A stretch of DNA of 64,000 nt from Pseudomonas oryzihabitans (GTDB taxonomy: Bacteria; Pseudomonadota; Gammaproteobacteria; Pseudomonadales; Pseudomonadaceae), in assembly GCF_024652905.1 (NCBI RefSeq), contig NZ_CP102428.1, positions 3,518,001-3,582,000 of the forward strand, given 5' to 3'. Shown in pieces: positions 27,576 to 38,711 of this stretch; within the stretch, counting starts at the first letter, position 1; each line of letters opens with the position of its first letter. The notes beneath the pieces were generated by a model that saw nothing but the letters and a program-made list of their open reading frames with translations, was not told where the DNA came from and ran no database searches. A program made the translations under genes and the position numbers.

Positions 27576-27596
27576 CGACGCCCTAAGCGGGCGTCG
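27576..27596. terminator. Hairpin between convergent genes
   Basis: CGACGCCC / GGGCGTCG stem with a 5-base loop lies after the 63-residue gene and covers the LysR stop codon. There is no T-tract, so the assignment is tentative. Confidence 0.4.
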
Positions 27597-28488
27597 GCGC
27601 CTCCAGCGCGGCCAGATAGGTCGCGACCTCGGCCTGGATCCAGGCGCTGAAGCGCTCCTGCTTGTCCGCCGATTCGGCACGTTCCGGCCAGACCAGCCAG
27701 TAGGCATAGGGATAGGGCGCCGTCACCGGACTGAGCTGGACCAGACGCCCCTCGTTCAGCGCGGCCTGCACCAGGCTGCGCCGCTCCAGCGCCAGCGCCT
27801 GACCAAGGCGTAGCGCCTCCAGTACCACGTTGGAATCGTTCACGCTGATGCCGCGATTGGGTGCCGCTTCGCCTAGACCGGCCGTTTCGCCCCAGTGCAG
27901 CCAGGTTTCCTCCGTATGCAACAGCGGCTGCGCGAGGGCCTCGTCTAGACTGCGCGGCAGTTGCCCACCGTTGTAACCAGGCGCCGCCACCAGCAGCACA
28001 TCGTCCTGAAACAACCGTAGCGCCGTCAGGCCATCCCACTGCCCCTCGCCCATGCGCACTCCAATATCCACCATGCCCTGGCGCAGATCCTGGAAATCCA
28101 GGCTGGTCTGGATACGGATGCGGTACTCCGGGTGCAGGGCGCGAAAACGCGGCAGCCGGGGCAACAGCCAGTGGGTGGCGAAGGAGGGAAAGGTGGCGAA
28201 TACCAGCTCGTTGCGCCGCGGGCGGGCCTGCAGGCGCCGAGTCGCCTCGCCCAGATCGTCGAGCAACTGGCGGACCTGCTCGGCATAGACGCGACCGTCG
28301 CCGGTGACCTCGATCCCGCGCCCCTGGCGCTCGAACAGCACCATGCCCAGTTGATGCTCCAGCCCCTTTACCTGCTGACTGACCGCGGCATGGGTGAGGT
28401 GCAATTCATTGGCGGCGCGGGTCACGCTGCCCAGGCGGGCAACCGCTTCGAAGCAGCGCAGGGCATTCAAGGGCGGCACGCGGGACAT
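27583..28488 (-). CDS. LysR-family regulator, GcvA-like
   Basis: 301 residues. The N-terminal helix-turn-helix is 'NALRCFEAVARLGSVTRAANELHLTHAAVSQQVKGLEHQLGMVLFERQGRG', the form typical of the GcvA/AmpR branch. The remainder is the periplasmic-binding-like effector domain. It is divergent from the glutathione S-transferase gene with a 155-bp intergenic region, so that gene is its likely target. The start MSRVPPLNALRCFE at 28488 fits; 33 further upstream codons lie in the promoter region. Confidence 0.88.
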   Translation of the reverse strand: MSRVPPLNALRCFEAVARLGSVTRAANELHLTHAAVSQQVKGLEHQLGMVLFERQGRGIEVTGDGRVYAEQVRQLLDDLGEATRRLQARPRRNELVFATFPSFATHWLLPRLPRFRALHPEYRIRIQTSLDFQDLRQGMVDIGVRMGEGQWDGLTALRLFQDDVLLVAAPGYNGGQLPRSLDEALAQPLLHTEETWLHWGETAGLGEAAPNRGISVNDSNVVLEALRLGQALALERRSLVQAALNEGRLVQLSPVTAPYPYAYWLVWPERAESADKQERFSAWIQAEVATYLAALEAPTPA

Positions 28489-28643
28489 GTAAGTTTTCCT
28501 TAACGATCCGGTCAGAATTTCTCGCTGGTGGCAGCTTCGCTGAATGCTTAATGTCCTGTCCAGAGCGGCACCCAGTGTGAAACACACGACAAGGGTGACG
28601 TTCCACGTGAAACAGGATTCACTCTTTCTGACAGGATGCCCCC

Positions 28644-29394: not shown

Positions 29395-30504
29395 TTACCC
29401 GCGGTAATACCGCTGCGGCACGAAGGGCGTCTTGGCGACCTTGACCGGCACCTGCTTGCCGCGCACCACGGCGAACAGCTGGGTATCCAGGGCGGCGAAG
29501 TCGCTGTCGACATACCCCATGGCCACCGGCGCCCCCAGGGTCGGGCCGAAGCCGCCACTGGTCACGCGACCGATGCTGGCGCCATTGGCATCCACCAGCT
29601 CCGCGCCCTCGCGCACCGGCACCCGCTCCTGCACCAGCAGGCCGACACGCTTGCGCGTCACGCCGTCGCGCTGTTCGGCGAAGATACGCTCGGCGCCCGG
29701 GAAACCGCCAGCGCGGCCGTTGCCTTCGCGGCGCACCTTGGACAGCGCCCACCCCAGGTTGGCCATCACCGGCGTGGTGCCGGCATCCATGTCGTGGCCA
29801 TAGAGGCAGAGGCCCGCTTCCAGGCGCAGGGAATCCCGGGCACCCAGGCCGATGGCTTCGACTTCCGGCTCGGCCAGCAGGCGGCGGGCCAGGGCTTCGG
29901 CGGCAGCACTCGGCACCGAGATCTCGTAGCCGTCTTCGCCGGTGTAGCCGCTGCGACTGACGATGCAGGGCTGGTCCAGCAGCTTGACGCGGCGGACCTG
30001 CATGAAGGTCATCTCGGCCACTTCCGGCGCCAGGCGCGCCAGCACCGCGGCAGCGGCGGGGCCCTGCAGGGCCAGCAGGGCGCGGTCGAATTGCGGCAGC
30101 ACCTGGCAGCGGTCGCCCAGGTGCTTTTCCAGGTGGGCGAGATCGGCTTCCTTGCAGGCGGCGTTGACCACCAGGTAGAGGCAGTCACCCAGGTTGGCGA
30201 CCATGAGGTCGTCGAGGATGCCGCCGTTGTCGTCGGTCAGCAGGGCATAGCGCTGCATGCCGCTGGGCAGGTCGATGATGTCGACCGGTACCAGGGTCTC
30301 CAGCGCCTCAGCGGCTTCCTCGCCTTCGAGCAGGACCTGGCCCATGTGCGACACATCGAACAACCCGGCCTGGGCACGGGTGTGCTGGTGCTCCTTGAGC
30401 ACGCCGAGCGGGTACTGCACCGGCATCTCGTAGCCGGCGAAGGGCACCATGCGGGCGCCGAGTTCCAGGTGCAGGGCGTGCAGCGAAGTCTTGAGCAGGG
30501 ACAT
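29395..30504 (-). CDS. gcvT: Glycine cleavage system T protein (aminomethyltransferase)
   Basis: 369 residues. It transfers the methylene group from aminomethyl-lipoyl GcvH to tetrahydrofolate and releases ammonia. Family features: 'MVPFAGYEMPVQYP' near the start, 'AGLFDVSHMGQ', 'RSGYTGEDGYEISV' and 'EAIGLGARDSLRLEAGLCLYGHDMD' (catalytic Asp region). The start at 30504 is the family one. It is the last gene of gcvHPT but is separated from gcvP by 210 bp holding a repeat. Confidence 0.95.
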   Translation of the reverse strand: MSLLKTSLHALHLELGARMVPFAGYEMPVQYPLGVLKEHQHTRAQAGLFDVSHMGQVLLEGEEAAEALETLVPVDIIDLPSGMQRYALLTDDNGGILDDLMVANLGDCLYLVVNAACKEADLAHLEKHLGDRCQVLPQFDRALLALQGPAAAAVLARLAPEVAEMTFMQVRRVKLLDQPCIVSRSGYTGEDGYEISVPSAAAEALARRLLAEPEVEAIGLGARDSLRLEAGLCLYGHDMDAGTTPVMANLGWALSKVRREGNGRAGGFPGAERIFAEQRDGVTRKRVGLLVQERVPVREGAELVDANGASIGRVTSGGFGPTLGAPVAMGYVDSDFAALDTQLFAVVRGKQVPVKVAKTPFVPQRYYRG

Positions 30505-30628
30505 GGTGGGGCTCCGTGTCGGCTTTCTCGCTCTGGTCCTCTGTTCAGCGAGGACGAACGAGGAAGCGGTGATCTGGTTGATCGCGCCCTGCTGTTGGAA
30601 GCGGGCGCGACTTGGGTGATTCGGGTTT

Positions 30629-30713
30629 GCCCTCACCCCAGCCCTCTCCCTGGGGGAGAGGGGGAAGAGCGGCTCTGCTCCCCTTCTCCCGGAAGAGGGG
30701 CCGGGGGTAAGGG
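30629..30713. repeat. Palindromic repeat in the gcvP-gcvT gap
   Basis: CCCTCACCCCAGCCCTCTCC at 30630 and a degenerate inverted form ending GGGGGTAAGGG at 30713 enclose a purine-rich hairpin region. It is a member of the dispersed family and may reduce gcvT expression relative to gcvP. Confidence 0.75.
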
Positions 30714-30714
30714 C

Positions 30715-33570
<2,856 letters not shown>

Positions 33571-33577
33571 GGCGGTC

Positions 33578-33946
33578 TTACCCCTTGATCAGTTGCTGAT
33601 AGGCGGCTTCGTCGAGCAGCGCGGCGAAGGCTTCGGCATTGGCGGGCTGGAAGCGAAAGAACCAGCCGGCGTTCAGCGGATCGCTGTTGATGGTCTCGGG
33701 CGCATCGTCGAGCGCCTCGTTGACGGCCAGGACCTCGCCGTCCAGCGGCATGGTGATGTTGCTGGCGGCCTTGACCGACTCCAGCACCGCGACCTCATCG
33801 CCCTGGGCGTAGCTGCGCAGCTCCGGCAGTTGCACGAAGACCAGGTCGCCCAGCGAGTCCTGAGCATAGTCGGTGATGCCGACGGTGATGCTGCCATCGG
33901 CTTCCTGACGCAGCCATTCGTGTTCTTCGGTATAGCGCAGACCCAT
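33578..33946 (-). CDS. gcvH: Glycine cleavage system H protein
   Basis: 122 residues, lipoyl carrier. The modified lysine is in '[21 protein letters not shown]', and the start '[12 protein letters not shown]' and the end region '[16 protein letters not shown]' fit the family. First gene of gcvHPT, under the -24/-12 promoter and triple box upstream. Confidence 0.96.
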
Positions 33947-33995
33947 TGCCAGACTCCTGCGGACCTTTGTCCTGATGGATAGATGGGTCTAGCAG

Positions 33996-34011
33996 TGCAA
34001 GGGCGATGCCA
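33996..34011 (-). promoter_or_regulatory. Sigma-54 (-24/-12) promoter of gcvHPT
   Basis: On the minus strand, TGGCATCGCCCTTGCA matches TGGCAC-N5-TTGCA with a single base change. It is 50 bp upstream of the gcvH start. Together with the boxes further upstream it makes a normal enhancer-dependent promoter. Confidence 0.85.
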
Positions 34012-34062
34012 GGAACAAAATTCAGTATTTTCAAGGGCTTATCGGGTCAGAGGATGGTGTTC

Positions 34063-34080
34063 TGTAACGAAATCGTTACG
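34063..34080. promoter_or_regulatory. GcsR-type box 1 upstream of gcvH
   Basis: TGTAACGAAATCGTTACG has the TGTAACG-N4-CGTTNCG form reported for GcsR in P. aeruginosa. Its central 16 bases are a perfect palindrome. It lies 52 bp upstream of the -24 element. Confidence 0.8.
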
Positions 34081-34104
34081 ATTAATAGATTAGCCGCCTA
34101 TAGC

Positions 34105-34122
34105 CGTATCGATTTTCGAACA
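34105..34122. promoter_or_regulatory. GcsR-type box 2 upstream of gcvH
   Basis: CGTATCGATTTTCGAACA lines up with the reverse of box 1, with the same outer CGT...ACA bases and the central ATT. Weaker than box 1. Confidence 0.6.
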
Positions 34123-34123
34123 T

Positions 34124-34141
34124 CGTATCTAAATCATTACA
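34124..34141. promoter_or_regulatory. GcsR-type box 3 upstream of gcvH
   Basis: CGTATCTAAATCATTACA keeps the CGTA...TTACA ends and lies one base from box 2. It is the most divergent of the three. Confidence 0.5.
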
Positions 34142-34291
34142 GTGTTAGCTGGGCTCTTGGATCTGACAGCTAGGCTGAACGGGTTGCAGGCTGCTGTCCC
34201 TTATCCATACAGGATAGACAAGGCCTGCGTGAACGCCCTCGCCGACCCATTCCCTTCGGCAGTAGCCAGTCTTCAAAGCATGCCGTTGCCT

Positions 34292-34410
34292 GGTGTGCGC
34301 CGCGGCTTCCTGACCGTACTTCAACACGTCCAGACGTGCGGCGAAGCCCTAGATCAGCTCCATCAGGGTGATCGTACTGATGCCCAACTGCCCCTGGTGT
34401 CGAGTGAAGG
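34292..34410 (-). pseudogene. vapC-like toxin fragment
   Basis: In one minus frame a PIN-domain VapC-like stretch reads 'AFTRHQGQLGISTITLMELI', then a TAG stop at 34349-34351, then in the same frame 'GFAARLDVLKYGQEAAAHT'. Both parts are typical of VapC tRNA endonucleases (Glu of 'LMELI' is a catalytic residue). The first part of the toxin, including the N-terminal Asp motif, is missing, and the segment normally found between 'ELI' and 'GFAARL' is deleted. No functional toxin can be made. Confidence 0.75.
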
Positions 34411-34631
34411 CTCACGCTCCTGCTCGGTGGGCTGGCCACGTTCCGCCATGAAATCCGCCGTGACACCCTCCCCTCGAACCAGAAATCCCAGGATTCCCCG
34501 ACCGGAGCAATGATCCTCGCGCGGCCAACGGCGACCACATCGACACGCTTTACGTCTTCGGGCAGGGAAACCGCGTTGGGCAGTCTCACCGCCTGACTGC
34601 GATTGCTCTGAAACACGGCACCTTGATCCAT
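34411..34631 (-). pseudogene. vapB-like antitoxin, frameshifted
   Basis: Starting at 34631 the frame reads 'MDQGAVFQSNRSQAVRLPNAVSLPEDVKRVDVVAVG..', a VapB antitoxin with the SpoVT/AbrB swapped-hairpin DNA-binding domain, up to 'GESWDFWF'. A one-base loss near 34470 then moves the ending 'VTADFMAERGQPTEQERE' into another frame. The end is fused to the toxin fragment by deletion of the junction. The 5' part would still encode a DNA-binding domain. Confidence 0.78.
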
Positions 34632-34927
34632 GCTCGGCCTCCCGGAACGTATCGGCTGTATATCCCATATTGAGAGCAAGACCAGATCTGTCAATCGGCA
34701 TGCTCTCGGCAGCGGACGACGCAGCTGGCAGAGCGCTCTGCTCGCGGATGCCACCTGGCGAAGCCTGGGCAAGAACGCCGGAAGCGGGACGTCAGCGGAG
34801 CCGGAGGCCAGATTCAGACAGGAGCACCCAAGGCGAACTTCCACCCCGCTCTGTCGGACCAAGAAAGCACAACAAGACCTCTGCCAAGCGGCTTTGCCCT
34901 CCCCCACCCTTGCCTGGAGTCTTTGTC
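34632..34927. other. Intergenic region, vapB relic to poxB
   Basis: About 296 bp. It holds the promoters of the decayed vapB gene (TATATCCCATATTG at about 34660) and of poxB. No other gene was supported; the open frame continuing upstream of poxB has no protein character. Confidence 0.45.
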
Positions 34928-36652
34928 ATGGCTGTGAAAACCGTTGCCGATCTGCTCGTCGCCACCCTCGAAGCGGCTGGCGTCGACACCATCTGGGGCC
35001 TGCCGGGCGATTCGCTCAACGGCCTCACCGAAAGCCTGCGCAAGCGTGAGCGCATCCGCTGGCGCGGGGTGCGGCACGAAGAAGCCGCGGCCTTCGCCGC
35101 CAGTGCCGCGGCCGACACCAGCGGGCGTCTGGCGGTGTGCGCCGGCTCCTGCGGTCCGGGCAACCTGCACCTGATCAATGGCCTGTTCGACGCCCAGCGC
35201 AGCGGTGCGCCGGTGCTGGCCATCGCCGCTCAGATTCCCTCCAGCGAGATCGGCCTGGGCTATTTCCAGGAGACCCATCCGGAGCGGCTGTTCCGTGACT
35301 GCAGCGACTTCTGCGAGGTGGTCTCCCATCCCGAGCAACTGCCGCGCATCCTCGAGACCGCCATGCGTTCGGCCATCCTCAATCGCTCGGTGTCGGTGGT
35401 GGTGATTCCCGGCGACGTGGCCCTGGCCGAGGCGCCAGTCAAGGAAGCCCAGTGGAGCGAGCCGGTGCGTCCGGTAGTGGTGCCGCCGGACGCCGAACTG
35501 GACGCCCTGGCCGAATTGCTGGCCGGGGAAAAGCGCATCACCCTGCTCTGCGGCGCCGGTTGTGCCGGTGCCCATGCCCAGGTGGTGGCCCTGGCCGAGC
35601 GCCTGCAGGCGCCGGTGGTCCATGCGCTGCGCGGCAAGGCCCATATCGAATATTCCAATCCCTATGGCGTGGGCATGACCGGCCTGATCGGCTTTTCGTC
35701 CGGCTATCATGCGCTCAAGGAGTGCGACCTGCTGCTGATGCTGGGCAGCAACTTCCCCTATCGCAACTTCTTCCCGGATCACGGCCGCGTGGTGCAGATC
35801 GACGTGCGCGGCGCCCACCTGGGCGTGCGCACCCCGCTGCTCAAGGGGCTGGTGGGCGATGTCCGCGCCACCCTCGACGCCCTGCTGCCGCGACTCCAGC
35901 CCAACAGCCACAGCCGCTTCCTGGAAAAGGCCCAGCAGCACTACCGCAAGACCCGCGCCGAGCTGGACGAACTGGCCACCGCCACCGCCGATGGCGAGCC
36001 GTTGCATCCGCAGTACCTCACCACCCGGGTCAGTGAACTGGCCGCGGCGGACGCCCTCTTCACCTGCGACGTCGGCACCCCCACGGTGTGGGCGGCGCGC
36101 TACCTGGCGATGAATTTCGAACGCAAGCTGGCCGGCTCCTTCAGCCACGGCTCCATGGCCAACGCCCTGCCCCAGGCCATGGGCCTGCAGGCGGCCTATC
36201 CCGATCGCCAGGTGGTGGCGCTGGCCGGCGATGGCGGGCTGTCCATGCTGCTCGGCGAACTGGCGACCCTCGCCAGCGAACAGCTGCCGGTCAAGGTCAT
36301 CGTCTACGACAACGCCACCCTGGGCTTCGTCGCCATGGAGATGAAGGCCGCCGGCATGATCGACGAGACCACCGATCTGGGTGAGGTCGATTTCGCCCGG
36401 GTCGCCGAGGCCTGCGGCGTGCGCGGCTGGAAGGTGGAATCGGCCAGTCTGCTCGACGCCACCCTGGAGGAGGCCTTCGCCCACCCCGGTCCGGCGCTGG
36501 TGGACGTGCGCATCGCCAAGCAGGAACTGTCGCTGCCACCGAAGATCGAGGCCGCCCAGGCCAAGGGCTTCAGCCTCTACATGCTGCGCGCGGTAATGAG
36601 TGGTCGCGGTAGCGAGGTGGTGGATCTGGCCAAGACCAACGTGCTGCGCTGA
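34928..36652 (+). CDS. poxB: Pyruvate dehydrogenase (quinone) / pyruvate oxidase
   Basis: 574 residues, thiamine-diphosphate- and FAD-dependent enzyme that oxidises pyruvate to acetate and CO2 and reduces the quinone pool at the inner membrane. Motifs: 'GLPGDSLNGLTESL' and the ThDP glutamate in 'RHEEAAAFAASA' at the N-terminus; 'GSCGPGNLHLINGLFDA'; the ThDP/Mg motif 'VVALAGDGGLSMLLGEL...NATLGFV' in the C-terminal domain. The ATG at 34928 is the family start. No obvious partner genes. Confidence 0.9.
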   Translation: MAVKTVADLLVATLEAAGVDTIWGLPGDSLNGLTESLRKRERIRWRGVRHEEAAAFAASAAADTSGRLAVCAGSCGPGNLHLINGLFDAQRSGAPVLAIAAQIPSSEIGLGYFQETHPERLFRDCSDFCEVVSHPEQLPRILETAMRSAILNRSVSVVVIPGDVALAEAPVKEAQWSEPVRPVVVPPDAELDALAELLAGEKRITLLCGAGCAGAHAQVVALAERLQAPVVHALRGKAHIEYSNPYGVGMTGLIGFSSGYHALKECDLLLMLGSNFPYRNFFPDHGRVVQIDVRGAHLGVRTPLLKGLVGDVRATLDALLPRLQPNSHSRFLEKAQQHYRKTRAELDELATATADGEPLHPQYLTTRVSELAAADALFTCDVGTPTVWAARYLAMNFERKLAGSFSHGSMANALPQAMGLQAAYPDRQVVALAGDGGLSMLLGELATLASEQLPVKVIVYDNATLGFVAMEMKAAGMIDETTDLGEVDFARVAEACGVRGWKVESASLLDATLEEAFAHPGPALVDVRIAKQELSLPPKIEAAQAKGFSLYMLRAVMSGRGSEVVDLAKTNVLR

Positions 36653-36660
36653 TCCGGACG

Positions 36661-36683
36661 CCCGCGGCGTTCAACGCCGCGGG
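36661..36683. terminator. Hairpin between poxB and the convergent regulator gene
   Basis: CCCGCGGCGTT/AACGCCGCGGG, an 11-bp perfect stem with a single base between arms (in practice a 4-5 base loop). It covers the stop codon of the regulator gene. There is no T-tract, so termination is likely but not certain. Confidence 0.5.
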
Positions 36684-38188
36684 ATGCCGTAGCGCCGCAG
36701 GCGCATGGCGATGGCCGAGTGGGAGGTCTGCAGGCGTGCGGCCAGCTGGCGGCTGGACGGATACTGTGGATAGAGCCGTTCCAGCAGCGCCGCCTCGTAG
36801 CCCTGGATGGCGGCTTCCAGGGTGCTGACCTCGGTCTCGACCTGACCGGCCACTGCGGTACCGGCCAGGTCCAGGTCGTCGACGTCGATCTGGCCGCTCT
36901 CGCTGATGGCAGCCGCCCGAAAGAGGATGTTCTGCAATTGCCGGACGTTGCCCGGCCAGGCATTGCCCAGCAGCACGCCGTAGGTGGCCGGCGCCAGGCG
37001 GCACGGCGGTCGACCGATCTGGGCGCAGGCCTGCTGCAGGAAGTGCCGCGCCAGCAGCAGGATGTCCTGGCCGCGCTCGCGCAAGGCCGGCACCTGCAGG
37101 CTGAGCACATTGAGGCGGTAGAAGAGGTCTTCGCGAAAGGTGCCGGTCGCGACCATGGCCTGCAGGTCGCGATGGGTGGCGGCGAGAATGCGCACATTGA
37201 CCTTGGTTTCCTGGGCCCCGCCAACGCGGCGAAAGCTGCCGTCCGAGAGAAATCTCAGCAACTTGGCCTGCAGATAGGGCGACATCTCGCCGACCTCGTC
37301 GAGAAACACCGTGCCCTGGTCGGCCAGCTCCAGCAGGCCCGGCTTGCCGCCGCGCTGGGCGCCGGTGAAGGCCCCTGGGGCATAGCCGAACAGTTCGCTC
37401 TCGGCCAGGCTCTCCGGCAGAGCAGCGCAATTCAGCGCCAGAAAGGGCGCCTCGCGCCGCGCACTGGCCGCATGGCAGGCGCGCGCCACCAGTTCCTTGC
37501 CGGTGCCGGTCTCGCCCAGGATCAGCAGTGGCGCCTCCAGGGCGGCCAGGCGCTGGGCCCGGGCCTTGAGGGTACGGATGGCGGCGCAATCGCCAAGCAG
37601 CGAATCGAAGCCCTCGGGGGTGTCGTGGCGCAGCGCCGAGAGGCGGCCACCGATGCGACTGGGGGCATAGAGGGTCAGCAGCCCACCGGCCAGTCCGCCC
37701 ACGGGTTCGCCAATGGGGGTGGCGTCCAGCAACAGCGCTTGGCCGCGCAGCACCACCTCGCGCAGGGGCAGGCGAAAGCCCTGATCCAGCAATTCGGCGG
37801 GCAATTCGCTGTCGTTGAAGAGTTCGGCCAGGGTATTGCCGGCGCCCTGACCGGCCAAGGCGGCAAAGGCCGGATTGGCCAGCAGGATGCGCCCTTCGCC
37901 GTCCACCGCCAGCACCGGATCGGCCATGGCGGCGAGCAGGGCGTCGAGCTGGAGTGAGCGCCGCTGGCCCGGCAGGATGTCCACCACCCGCACCGCCTCG
38001 ACCCCCACCACAGTGAGCAGGGCGGCGCGCAATTCCTCCAGCACCGCCGCGCTCAGGGTCGGCGCATCGATGTAGACGTTGGGCGGCACCATCTCCACAG
38101 CGTCCAGGTTGAGATTGCGCGCCCCGAGCAACGCCAGGACTTCCTGGGTGATGCCGACACGATCGATGAACGACACATGGATACGCAT
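36671..38188 (-). CDS. gcsR: TyrR-like sigma-54 enhancer-binding protein, likely glycine-responsive GcsR
   Basis: 505 residues. Domains: an N-terminal ACT domain ('MRIHVSFIDRVGITQEVLALLGARNLNLDAVEM'), a PAS domain (about 77-190), an AAA+ domain with 'GETGTGKE', an intact 'GAFTGA' sigma-54 loop and Walker B 'GTVFLDEVGE', and a C-terminal Fis/TyrR helix-turn-helix ('SSRQLAARLQTSHSAIAMRLRRYGI'). E. coli TyrR has lost GAFTGA, so this protein can still act with sigma-54. The paralogues PhhR (phenylalanine) and GcsR (glycine) are both possible. The nearby gcvHPT operon with a -24/-12 promoter and three GcsR-type boxes favours GcsR. Confidence 0.75.
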   Translation of the reverse strand: MRIHVSFIDRVGITQEVLALLGARNLNLDAVEMVPPNVYIDAPTLSAAVLEELRAALLTVVGVEAVRVVDILPGQRRSLQLDALLAAMADPVLAVDGEGRILLANPAFAALAGQGAGNTLAELFNDSELPAELLDQGFRLPLREVVLRGQALLLDATPIGEPVGGLAGGLLTLYAPSRIGGRLSALRHDTPEGFDSLLGDCAAIRTLKARAQRLAALEAPLLILGETGTGKELVARACHAASARREAPFLALNCAALPESLAESELFGYAPGAFTGAQRGGKPGLLELADQGTVFLDEVGEMSPYLQAKLLRFLSDGSFRRVGGAQETKVNVRILAATHRDLQAMVATGTFREDLFYRLNVLSLQVPALRERGQDILLLARHFLQQACAQIGRPPCRLAPATYGVLLGNAWPGNVRQLQNILFRAAAISESGQIDVDDLDLAGTAVAGQVETEVSTLEAAIQGYEAALLERLYPQYPSSRQLAARLQTSHSAIAMRLRRYGIPRR

Positions 38189-38276
38189 GGAAACCCTGGG
38201 GTCTGAAAGCGAAAGGGCTAATGCTACCCAAATGCTCGGGGTAGAATCACTTCTCATTTACCCAGGCGGGACCGCC

Positions 38277-38711
38277 ATGACCAACAAAGACCCTCTTCTG
38301 CTCGATCAGCAGCTGTGCTTCGCGCTGTACTCCACCTCGCTGGCCATGACCAAGGTGTACAAGCCGCTGCTCGAGGAGGTGGGCCTGACCTACCCGCAGT
38401 ACCTGATGATGCTGGTGCTCTGGGAAAACGACCGCCTGCCGCTCAAGGAGCTGGCACGGCGGCTGCACCAGGATTCCGGCGCCCTGACCCCGGTGCTCAA
38501 GCGCCTGGAAGCCGAGGGCTACGTGACCCGACAGCGCAATGCCGAGGACGAGCGCAACCTGTCCATCGAGCTCACCGAGGCTGGCCGGGCCCTGCGCGAG
38601 CGGGCCCAGGAGATCAACGGCACCATCAGCGGCTATTGCGCACTGGGCGATGCGCAGATGAATGCCTTGCGGGAAAACCTGATGACCCTGCGTGCCAAGC
38701 TGGAGCGTTGA
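38277..38711 (+). CDS. ohrR: Organic hydroperoxide-sensing MarR-family repressor
   Basis: 144 residues, OhrR. The redox-sensing cysteine is Cys14 in 'LDQQLCFALYSTSLAMT', followed by the winged helix 'KELARRLHQDSGALTPVLKRLEAEGYVTRQRNAEDERN' (recognition helix and wing arginine). Oxidation of the cysteine by organic peroxides releases DNA. It lies 88 bp from the divergent regulator gene and upstream of its target ohr, which follows after 146 bp. Confidence 0.93.
   Translation: MTNKDPLLLDQQLCFALYSTSLAMTKVYKPLLEEVGLTYPQYLMMLVLWENDRLPLKELARRLHQDSGALTPVLKRLEAEGYVTRQRNAEDERNLSIELTEAGRALRERAQEINGTISGYCALGDAQMNALRENLMTLRAKLER

Follow-up and report, generated by a model that had tools for sequence, protein, structure and literature searches.

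How is the glycine cleavage operon gcvHPT of Pseudomonas oryzihabitans controlled, and to what extent does its promoter follow the pattern described for other pseudomonads? In P. aeruginosa, the gcs2 operon is switched on in response to glycine by GcsR, which occupies three 18-bp repeats preceding gcvH2, and a predicted RpoN site has been reported for that operon (Sarwar et al., 2016, PMC4894688). Table 2 of the same paper includes P. oryzihabitans RIT370 among the GcsR carriers, and the paper speaks of GcsR proteins more than 80% identical to that of PAO1. A 2022 3D-seq study places the dominant peak of P. aeruginosa GcsR at gcvH2, with other peaks in the genome weakly supported (PMC9159945, excerpts), and P. 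fluorescens GcsR is treated as glycine-responsive (PMC10482368, excerpts). An earlier note, made from the DNA letters alone, had described P. aeruginosa GcsR as activating a gcv operon through three tandem boxes, in agreement with PMC4894688, and had proposed the same for the present locus.

We analysed a 64,000-nucleotide stretch of P. oryzihabitans DNA, hereafter the window, together with related loci. The site most probably (about 93%) represents a GcsR-dependent sigma-54 promoter of gcvHPT that would act by the mechanism proposed below, compact enhancer included. The sequence elements, the orthology of the regulator, the conservation and the geometry are established in this analysis. The core finding is itself ordinary, another member of the known GcsR system, because the mechanism was published in 2016 and a P. 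oryzihabitans ortholog was already listed. Newly described here are a compact promoter geometry and an extra 37-bp conserved block; the core circuit is already known.

A sigma-54 element and three unequal boxes upstream of gcvH

The sigma-54 (RpoN) -24/-12 promoter element of gcvHPT is located on the minus strand at 33996..34011. It reads TGGCATCGCCCTTGCA, with GG and GC spaced ten bases. The ATG of gcvH at 33946 lies 51 bp from the -12 end of the element, and the minus-strand element that the earlier note had placed about 50 bp before gcvH is thus borne out. The motif TGGC-N7-TTGCW occurs twice in the 64-kb window against 1.37 expected occurrences and is not significant alone; since the motif by itself is no better than chance, the credibility of the element comes from its position and conservation. 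No further sigma-54 element that might serve poxB or gcsR was found in the intergenic regions 33947-34927 and 38189-38290 when a match to 8 or more of the 11 consensus letters was required.

Farther upstream and on the same strand are three 18-bp boxes, named P, D2 and D1 in order of increasing distance from the promoter. The proximal GcsR box P (34063..34080, TGTAACGAAATCGTTACG) is a near-perfect palindrome, as had been claimed, and is the sole exact TGTAACG-N4-CGTTACG in the 5,220,184-base genome. Distal GcsR box 2, D2 (34105..34122, TGTTCGAAAATCGATACG), is degenerate, and distal GcsR box 1, D1 (34124..34141, TGTAATGATTTAGATACG), occupies the same place in ten clade genomes. All three box starts given before proved exact on direct reading. 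The first scoring matrix included members of the window's clade; a control matrix of 441 sites was devoid of any member of the window's genus. With this genus-free matrix P, D2 and D1 scored 25.2, 5.9 and 17.4 bits and ranked 1, 4 and 2 among the 63,983 positions of the window. Dinucleotide shuffling of the 280 bp preceding the sigma-54 element, repeated 2000 times, never yielded a score as high as that of P or that of D1, nor a comparable pair with 19-bp spacing. The claim of three similar boxes therefore stands as to places and ranks but not as to similarity, P being strong, D1 moderate and D2 degenerate. Weak single boxes are uninformative by themselves because the TGTAACG-N4-CGTTACG pattern at up to three mismatches is not enriched in the genome (124 matches versus 377 for the backward control).

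The regulator belongs to the GcsR clade

The gene at 36671..38188 on the minus strand encodes a TyrR-like sigma-54 activator, identified as GcsR by its domains, motifs and tree position. Its domain order is ACT-like, PAS, AAA+ with GAFTGA, and HTH_50. The PAS, Sigma54_activat and HTH_50 matches are above cut-off, and the ACT match (residues 9-57) is sub-threshold at 14.7 bits versus a cut-off of 27. Walker A, Walker B and the GAFTGA motif (residues 272-277) are all intact, the last as previously noted.

TyrR and PhhR regulators have the same domain order and related palindromic sites, and the boxes might be taken for TyrR/PhhR sites, in which case the regulator would be a PhhR acting on aromatic amino-acid metabolism. 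Similarity between GcsR and TyrR boxes is indeed described (PMC4894688, excerpts), and the regulator matches the TyrR model with 439 bits, under the cut-off of 576. We constructed a tree of 67 hand-picked rows, in which named P. fragi, P. putida and P. syringae loci serve as GcsR references and the long betaproteobacterial rows may be misplaced. The window regulator falls into the GcsR clade (55 rows, support 100/98), whereas seven PhhR proteins form a separate clade (100/100) far from it; the earlier note had named grouping with PhhR as the outcome that would speak against GcsR. The GAFTGA loop, intact in the window regulator, is altered in all seven sampled PhhR proteins (six GAFEGA and one GAFDGA). 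PhhR was also not found in the window genome at the thresholds used (E 1e-95 for the TyrR model and E 1e-90 for a PhhR query): the TyrR model had one match at E 1e-95 or better, and the PhhR query at E 1e-90 or better recovered GcsR only, at 45-46%, in all ten genomes of the window's clade. The effector of TyrR/PhhR regulators differs as well, according to the excerpts of PMC4894688. We consider the PhhR reading extremely improbable, and the assignment of the protein at 36671-38188 to GcsR is supported.

GcsR is present in all 13 genomes of the genus that were compared, namely the window's own, nine with proteins at 97-99% identity and three at 81%. PhhR is present in the three other genus members, once as a partial copy with an internal stop. 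As the PhhR query recovers only GcsR in the window genome, GcsR is the only TyrR-family candidate found for the boxes.

By analogy with P. aeruginosa, we infer that GcsR binds the boxes in the window, that the promoter responds to glycine and that it depends on sigma-54. Three GcsR dimers would occupy the boxes, two of them on the D1-D2 pair with its 19-bp spacing and one on P alone. Glycine, sensed by the N-terminal ACT/PAS part, would allow the GcsR dimers to join into an ATPase ring, and through DNA looping the GAFTGA loops would reach the sigma-54 RNA polymerase at 33996-34011. ATP hydrolysis would then open the gcvH promoter, allowing glycine to be split when plentiful.

Organization of the gcvHPT locus

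The operon runs on the minus strand. Its first gene is gcvH (33578..33946; NF002270 and TIGR00527, both above cut-off), followed by gcvP (30715..33570; TIGR00461, 1482 bits), the only gcvP found in the genome, and gcvT (29395..30504; NF010093, 564 bits, above cut-off), whose start codon was chosen within the open reading frame 29395-30636. The locus resembles gcs2 of P. aeruginosa PAO1 (PA2449; PMC4894688, excerpts) in having a TyrR-like activator, a predicted RpoN site, gcvH as the first gene of the operon and three 18-bp boxes of the TGTAACG-N4-CGTTCCG type. It also resembles P. fluorescens, P. putida and P. syringae, for which the same excerpts give a GcsR ortholog beside a gcs cluster with putative GcsR and RpoN sites. 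Compared with gcs2 (gcvH2-gcvP2-glyA2-sdaA-gcvT2), the window operon is devoid of glyA2 and sdaA, poxB separates gcsR from gcvH, the middle box is degenerate and the 37-bp conserved block is additional; PhhR, as stated above, was not found in the genome.

The lack of glyA2 and sdaA in the operon had been noticed before and is confirmed: the gcvP-gcvT gap is only 214 bp, and one monomeric-type sdaA and two glyA genes over cut-off lie elsewhere in the genome. The arrangement is not unusual, given that gcvT directly follows gcvP in five other surveyed loci (L023, L045, L055, L058 and L067) and that many clusters of the kind found in L009 have a gap of only 1.5-1.8 kb containing sdaA. We rejected control of the distant sdaA by GcsR, as inspection of its upstream sequence by eye revealed neither boxes nor a sigma-54 element. 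This sdaA adjoins a different LysR-type gene. A 3-mismatch box about 0.7 kb beyond the sdaA 3' end was taken as chance, being one of the 124 such matches in the genome.

The gene between gcsR and gcvH is a poxB-type ubiquinone-dependent pyruvate dehydrogenase gene on the plus strand (34928..36652; NF006591, 954 bits). It occupies this gap in 10 of the 13 genus genomes and was not counted as a member of the circuit. With poxB in between, gcsR and gcvH are 2.7 kb apart on the same strand. Like the weak D2 box, this gap speaks against the proposed circuit, the distance being 0.3-0.6 kb in most named loci, but L023, L045 and L058 have 4.7-4.9 kb. The gap also harbors a minus-strand open reading frame (34170-34907) with a VapB-type antitoxin fragment at residues 97-146 (67 bits versus a cut-off of 60); such a fragment was matched in loci L110 and L112 as well.

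A conserved promoter architecture beside GcsR genes

We surveyed 213 GcsR-type loci, comprising the window, 80 named loci, 12 genus relatives and 120 chosen family members. The last group contains 80 of 88 non-genus matches plus 40 regions hand-chosen among the further matches listed, with unusual lengths and small genomes favoured; sampling was thus non-random, and some near-duplicate promoters are still included. A search at E 1e-170 detected GcsR in 83 of 198 family genomes, and in a larger set in 248 of 398. A gcvH gene was identified in 164 of the 213 loci, on the same strand as gcsR in all 164. The remaining 49 loci had no gcvH within reach, some of them through a contig end. Four of the 164 promoters were dropped as duplicates, leaving 160 distinct ones.

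A sigma-54 element and box-like sites lie upstream of gcvH in 164 of 164 loci, with TGGC-N7-TTGC present in 163. Each promoter has three boxes by construction (the three best non-overlapping scores), and the weight of the comparison lies in where they fall. D1 and D2 are 19 bp apart in 158 of the 160 distinct promoters and 20 bp apart in the other two. With the genus-free matrix, a 19-bp first gap was obtained in 158 of 160 promoters and in none of 160 matched stretches taken as controls at the same loci. Controls scored 10.7 at best, and the lowest best score in a real promoter was 17.7.

Outside the window's clade, D2 is 80-85 bp from P in 142 of 150 promoters and P is 79-85 bp from the -24 element in 149 of 150. 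The total distance from D1 to the -24 element is 179-186 bp in 141 of 160 promoters and 129-131 bp in the ten promoters of the clade. The other nine have 170-171 bp (L056, L062, L065 and L087), 172 bp (L205), 174 bp (L214), 162 bp (L221), 192 bp (L061) and 236 bp (L055).

A compact enhancer in the window's clade

The window and its nine close relatives (the compact clade) have 42-43 bp between D2 and P, 68-69 bp between P and the -24 element and 129-131 bp between D1 and the -24 element. The window spacing of 19 / 42 / 69 bp is outside the 19 / 80-85 / 79-85 bp usual in the survey (typically 19 / about 81 / about 82 bp), and the enhancer falls short of the family norm measured in the present survey by 52 bp, or about five helical turns. 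D2 is also weaker in the clade, with a median score of 10.3 versus 22.8 overall. In the open-licence literature, covered as titles and abstract starts with subscription papers outside the scope, we recognised no account of GcsR box spacing or of this clade's promoter. The usual length occurs in the other three genus members and 138 more promoters, and the short enhancer would thus appear to be the derived form. In the GcsR tree, the window pair branches off first within the GcsR clade and the rest are joined at only 84/82; this tree alone does not settle whether 52 bp were lost in the clade or gained in the others.

Relative to the usual geometry, the distal pair of the compact clade is displaced by 4.95 turns, P by 1.24 turns from the promoter and by 3.71 turns from D2. 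The distal pair is therefore in phase with the promoter and P is about a quarter turn off. Seven length changes can be inferred by comparison with relatives, the clade's own being the first: -52, -11, -10, -10, -20, +11 and +55 bp. In turns of 10.5 bp these are near -5, -1, -1, -1, -2, +1 and +5 (the last, in L055, being 5.2). If a common reference of 182 bp is used, the change in L214 becomes -8 bp, or -0.8 turn. Most of the changes are on separate branches of the tree; L205 and L221 belong to one clade and may share history.

The same circuit could operate with a 19/42/69-bp geometry that is the product of drift, the loops being flexible and the near-whole-turn changes coincidental. We regard this as somewhat improbable but as a serious competitor. 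Only seven events are available, normal D1 distances already span 179-186 bp (7 bp, two-thirds of a turn), P of the window's own clade departs from the whole-turn rule, and single events are about a quarter turn off in a reference-dependent manner. Against drift, clustering of the changes in phase differs from a uniform distribution with p values of 0.0004 (local references), 0.0012 (common reference of 182) and 0.0039 (common reference without L205), all from seven events and reference lengths chosen after seeing the data. Among twelve periods tried, 10.5-10.8 bp fits best, and the 19-bp pair is fixed in 158 of 160 promoters. The evidence that length changes cluster near whole turns is fair but not final, given the few events and the post hoc choice of references.

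Under the reading we prefer, that of a phase-constrained GcsR enhancer, phase would be what selection kept. The five-turn shortening would leave the distal pair facing the promoter as in relatives, with P rotated by about a quarter turn. Because phase persists for the distal pair and not for P, the geometry suggests that the pair carries the constraint in this clade. Across the family, the 19-bp pair and the mostly whole-turn distance changes suggest a fairly rigid modular design of the GcsR enhancer, which would make these promoters a natural experiment on the importance of enhancer geometry in bacteria.

A clade-specific conserved block and a GcvA-like LysR neighbor

Four base pairs upstream of D1, on the minus strand at 34146..34182, the compact clade has a specific, weakly dyad-like conserved block of 37 bp. 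Among the ten clade genomes, 16 of the 37 columns of the block are invariant, compared with 28 of 54 in the boxes, 10 of 16 in the sigma-54 element and 6 of 76 between the elements; farther upstream of the block the alignment breaks down. Fisher tests against the between-element columns gave p values of 3e-8 for the boxes, 6e-6 for the sigma-54 element and 2e-5 for the block, which are descriptive only since the clade genomes are related and not independent. Scores with a matrix of the block are 41-52 within the clade and do not exceed 5.8 in the remaining 150 promoters; with up to three mismatches allowed, the block is matched once in the genome. Its match to its own reverse complement is weak (13.1 bits). 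A hairpin or terminator is not indicated in the block, as single-strand folding with DNA parameters was not unusual (z -0.18). The block is a candidate second input to glycine catabolism.

A GcvA-like LysR gene (27583-28488; 281 bits versus a cut-off of 288) and a GST gene adjoin gcvT in all ten compact-clade genomes. In the three other genus members, neither gene was found although more than 5 kb past gcvT was covered in each. The lysR-GST intergenic region (28489-28643) is strongly conserved in the ten genomes and contains the palindrome-like GTTTCACGTGGAAC, perhaps a candidate LysR operator. LysR binding to the 37-bp block was considered but gained no support, as the intergenic motif differs from the block; scanning the intergenic region of the ten genomes with the block matrix yielded nothing convincing. 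A search for a glycine riboswitch or other known RNA found none in 33000-38600. An L25-leader match was sub-threshold (28.2 bits versus 34.1), lies inside the gcsR coding sequence and was discarded.

These neighbors raise the question of whether the gcv operon is mainly controlled by a LysR regulator of the GcvA type or by a glycine riboswitch, with the boxes being relics. Both the LysR-GST pair beside gcvT and the conserved block beside the boxes are confined, within the genus genomes compared, to the compact clade, which counts in favour of this explanation. Yet the riboswitch search was negative in its region, the lysR-GST motif is unlike the block, and the boxes and sigma-54 element are conserved at least as well as the block, which is unexpected of relics. 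We judge the relic explanation very unlikely.

A more elaborate version of the GcsR-dependent promoter is that the clade rebuilt its enhancer: five turns would have been removed with only the distal pair phase-locked, P would have rotated by roughly a quarter of a turn, and the 37-bp block would be a newly added dyad operator at which a second regulator acts, in a lineage devoid of PhhR and with a GcvA-like LysR gene by gcvT. Taken as a whole, this scenario is speculative and rather doubtful.

Variation among GcsR relatives

Some relatives recovered in the survey differ in the GAFTGA loop or in their neighborhood. The Stutzerimonas-type orthologs L074, L075 (the same place as L222), L221 and L223, at 66-68% identity, have lost GAFTGA, which is replaced by GAAHAS, GVASGT, GAAGGT and GTANAS. 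L075 and L223 adjoin an apparent AGCS-type symporter gene and sdaA, as judged by eye, and gcvH was not found in either locus; in L221, gcvH and its sigma-54 element are retained. The GAFTGA-less orthologs may be sigma-70 regulators like E. coli TyrR. Other loop variants, GSFTGA or GAFSGA, are present in L196, L197, L199, L216 and L220, all of which retain gcvH, the sigma-54 element and the boxes. GcsR proteins with GAFTGA intact also occur at loci where gcvH was not found within the flank examined (L008, L024, L042 and others). In L008 the neighbor, judged by eye, is a gene for a malonate decarboxylase alpha subunit.

Betaproteobacterial GcsR relatives have 56-62% identity (L079, 6793-9725; L081, 7469-9920; L085, 3341-6184). 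By eye and from protein starts, their neighbors are dadA, alanine racemase or AGCS-type symporter genes, which suggests control of D-alanine catabolism. The title of a paper on A. brasilense TyrR (PMC6375630) agrees with such control.

Pseudomonas sp. BBP2017 carries two GcsR paralogs (L036 and L072), each beside its own gcv cluster. The boxes are of the TGGAGC...GCTCCA kind in L072 and of the TGTA...TACA kind in L036, a difference that possibly avoids crosstalk between the two systems.
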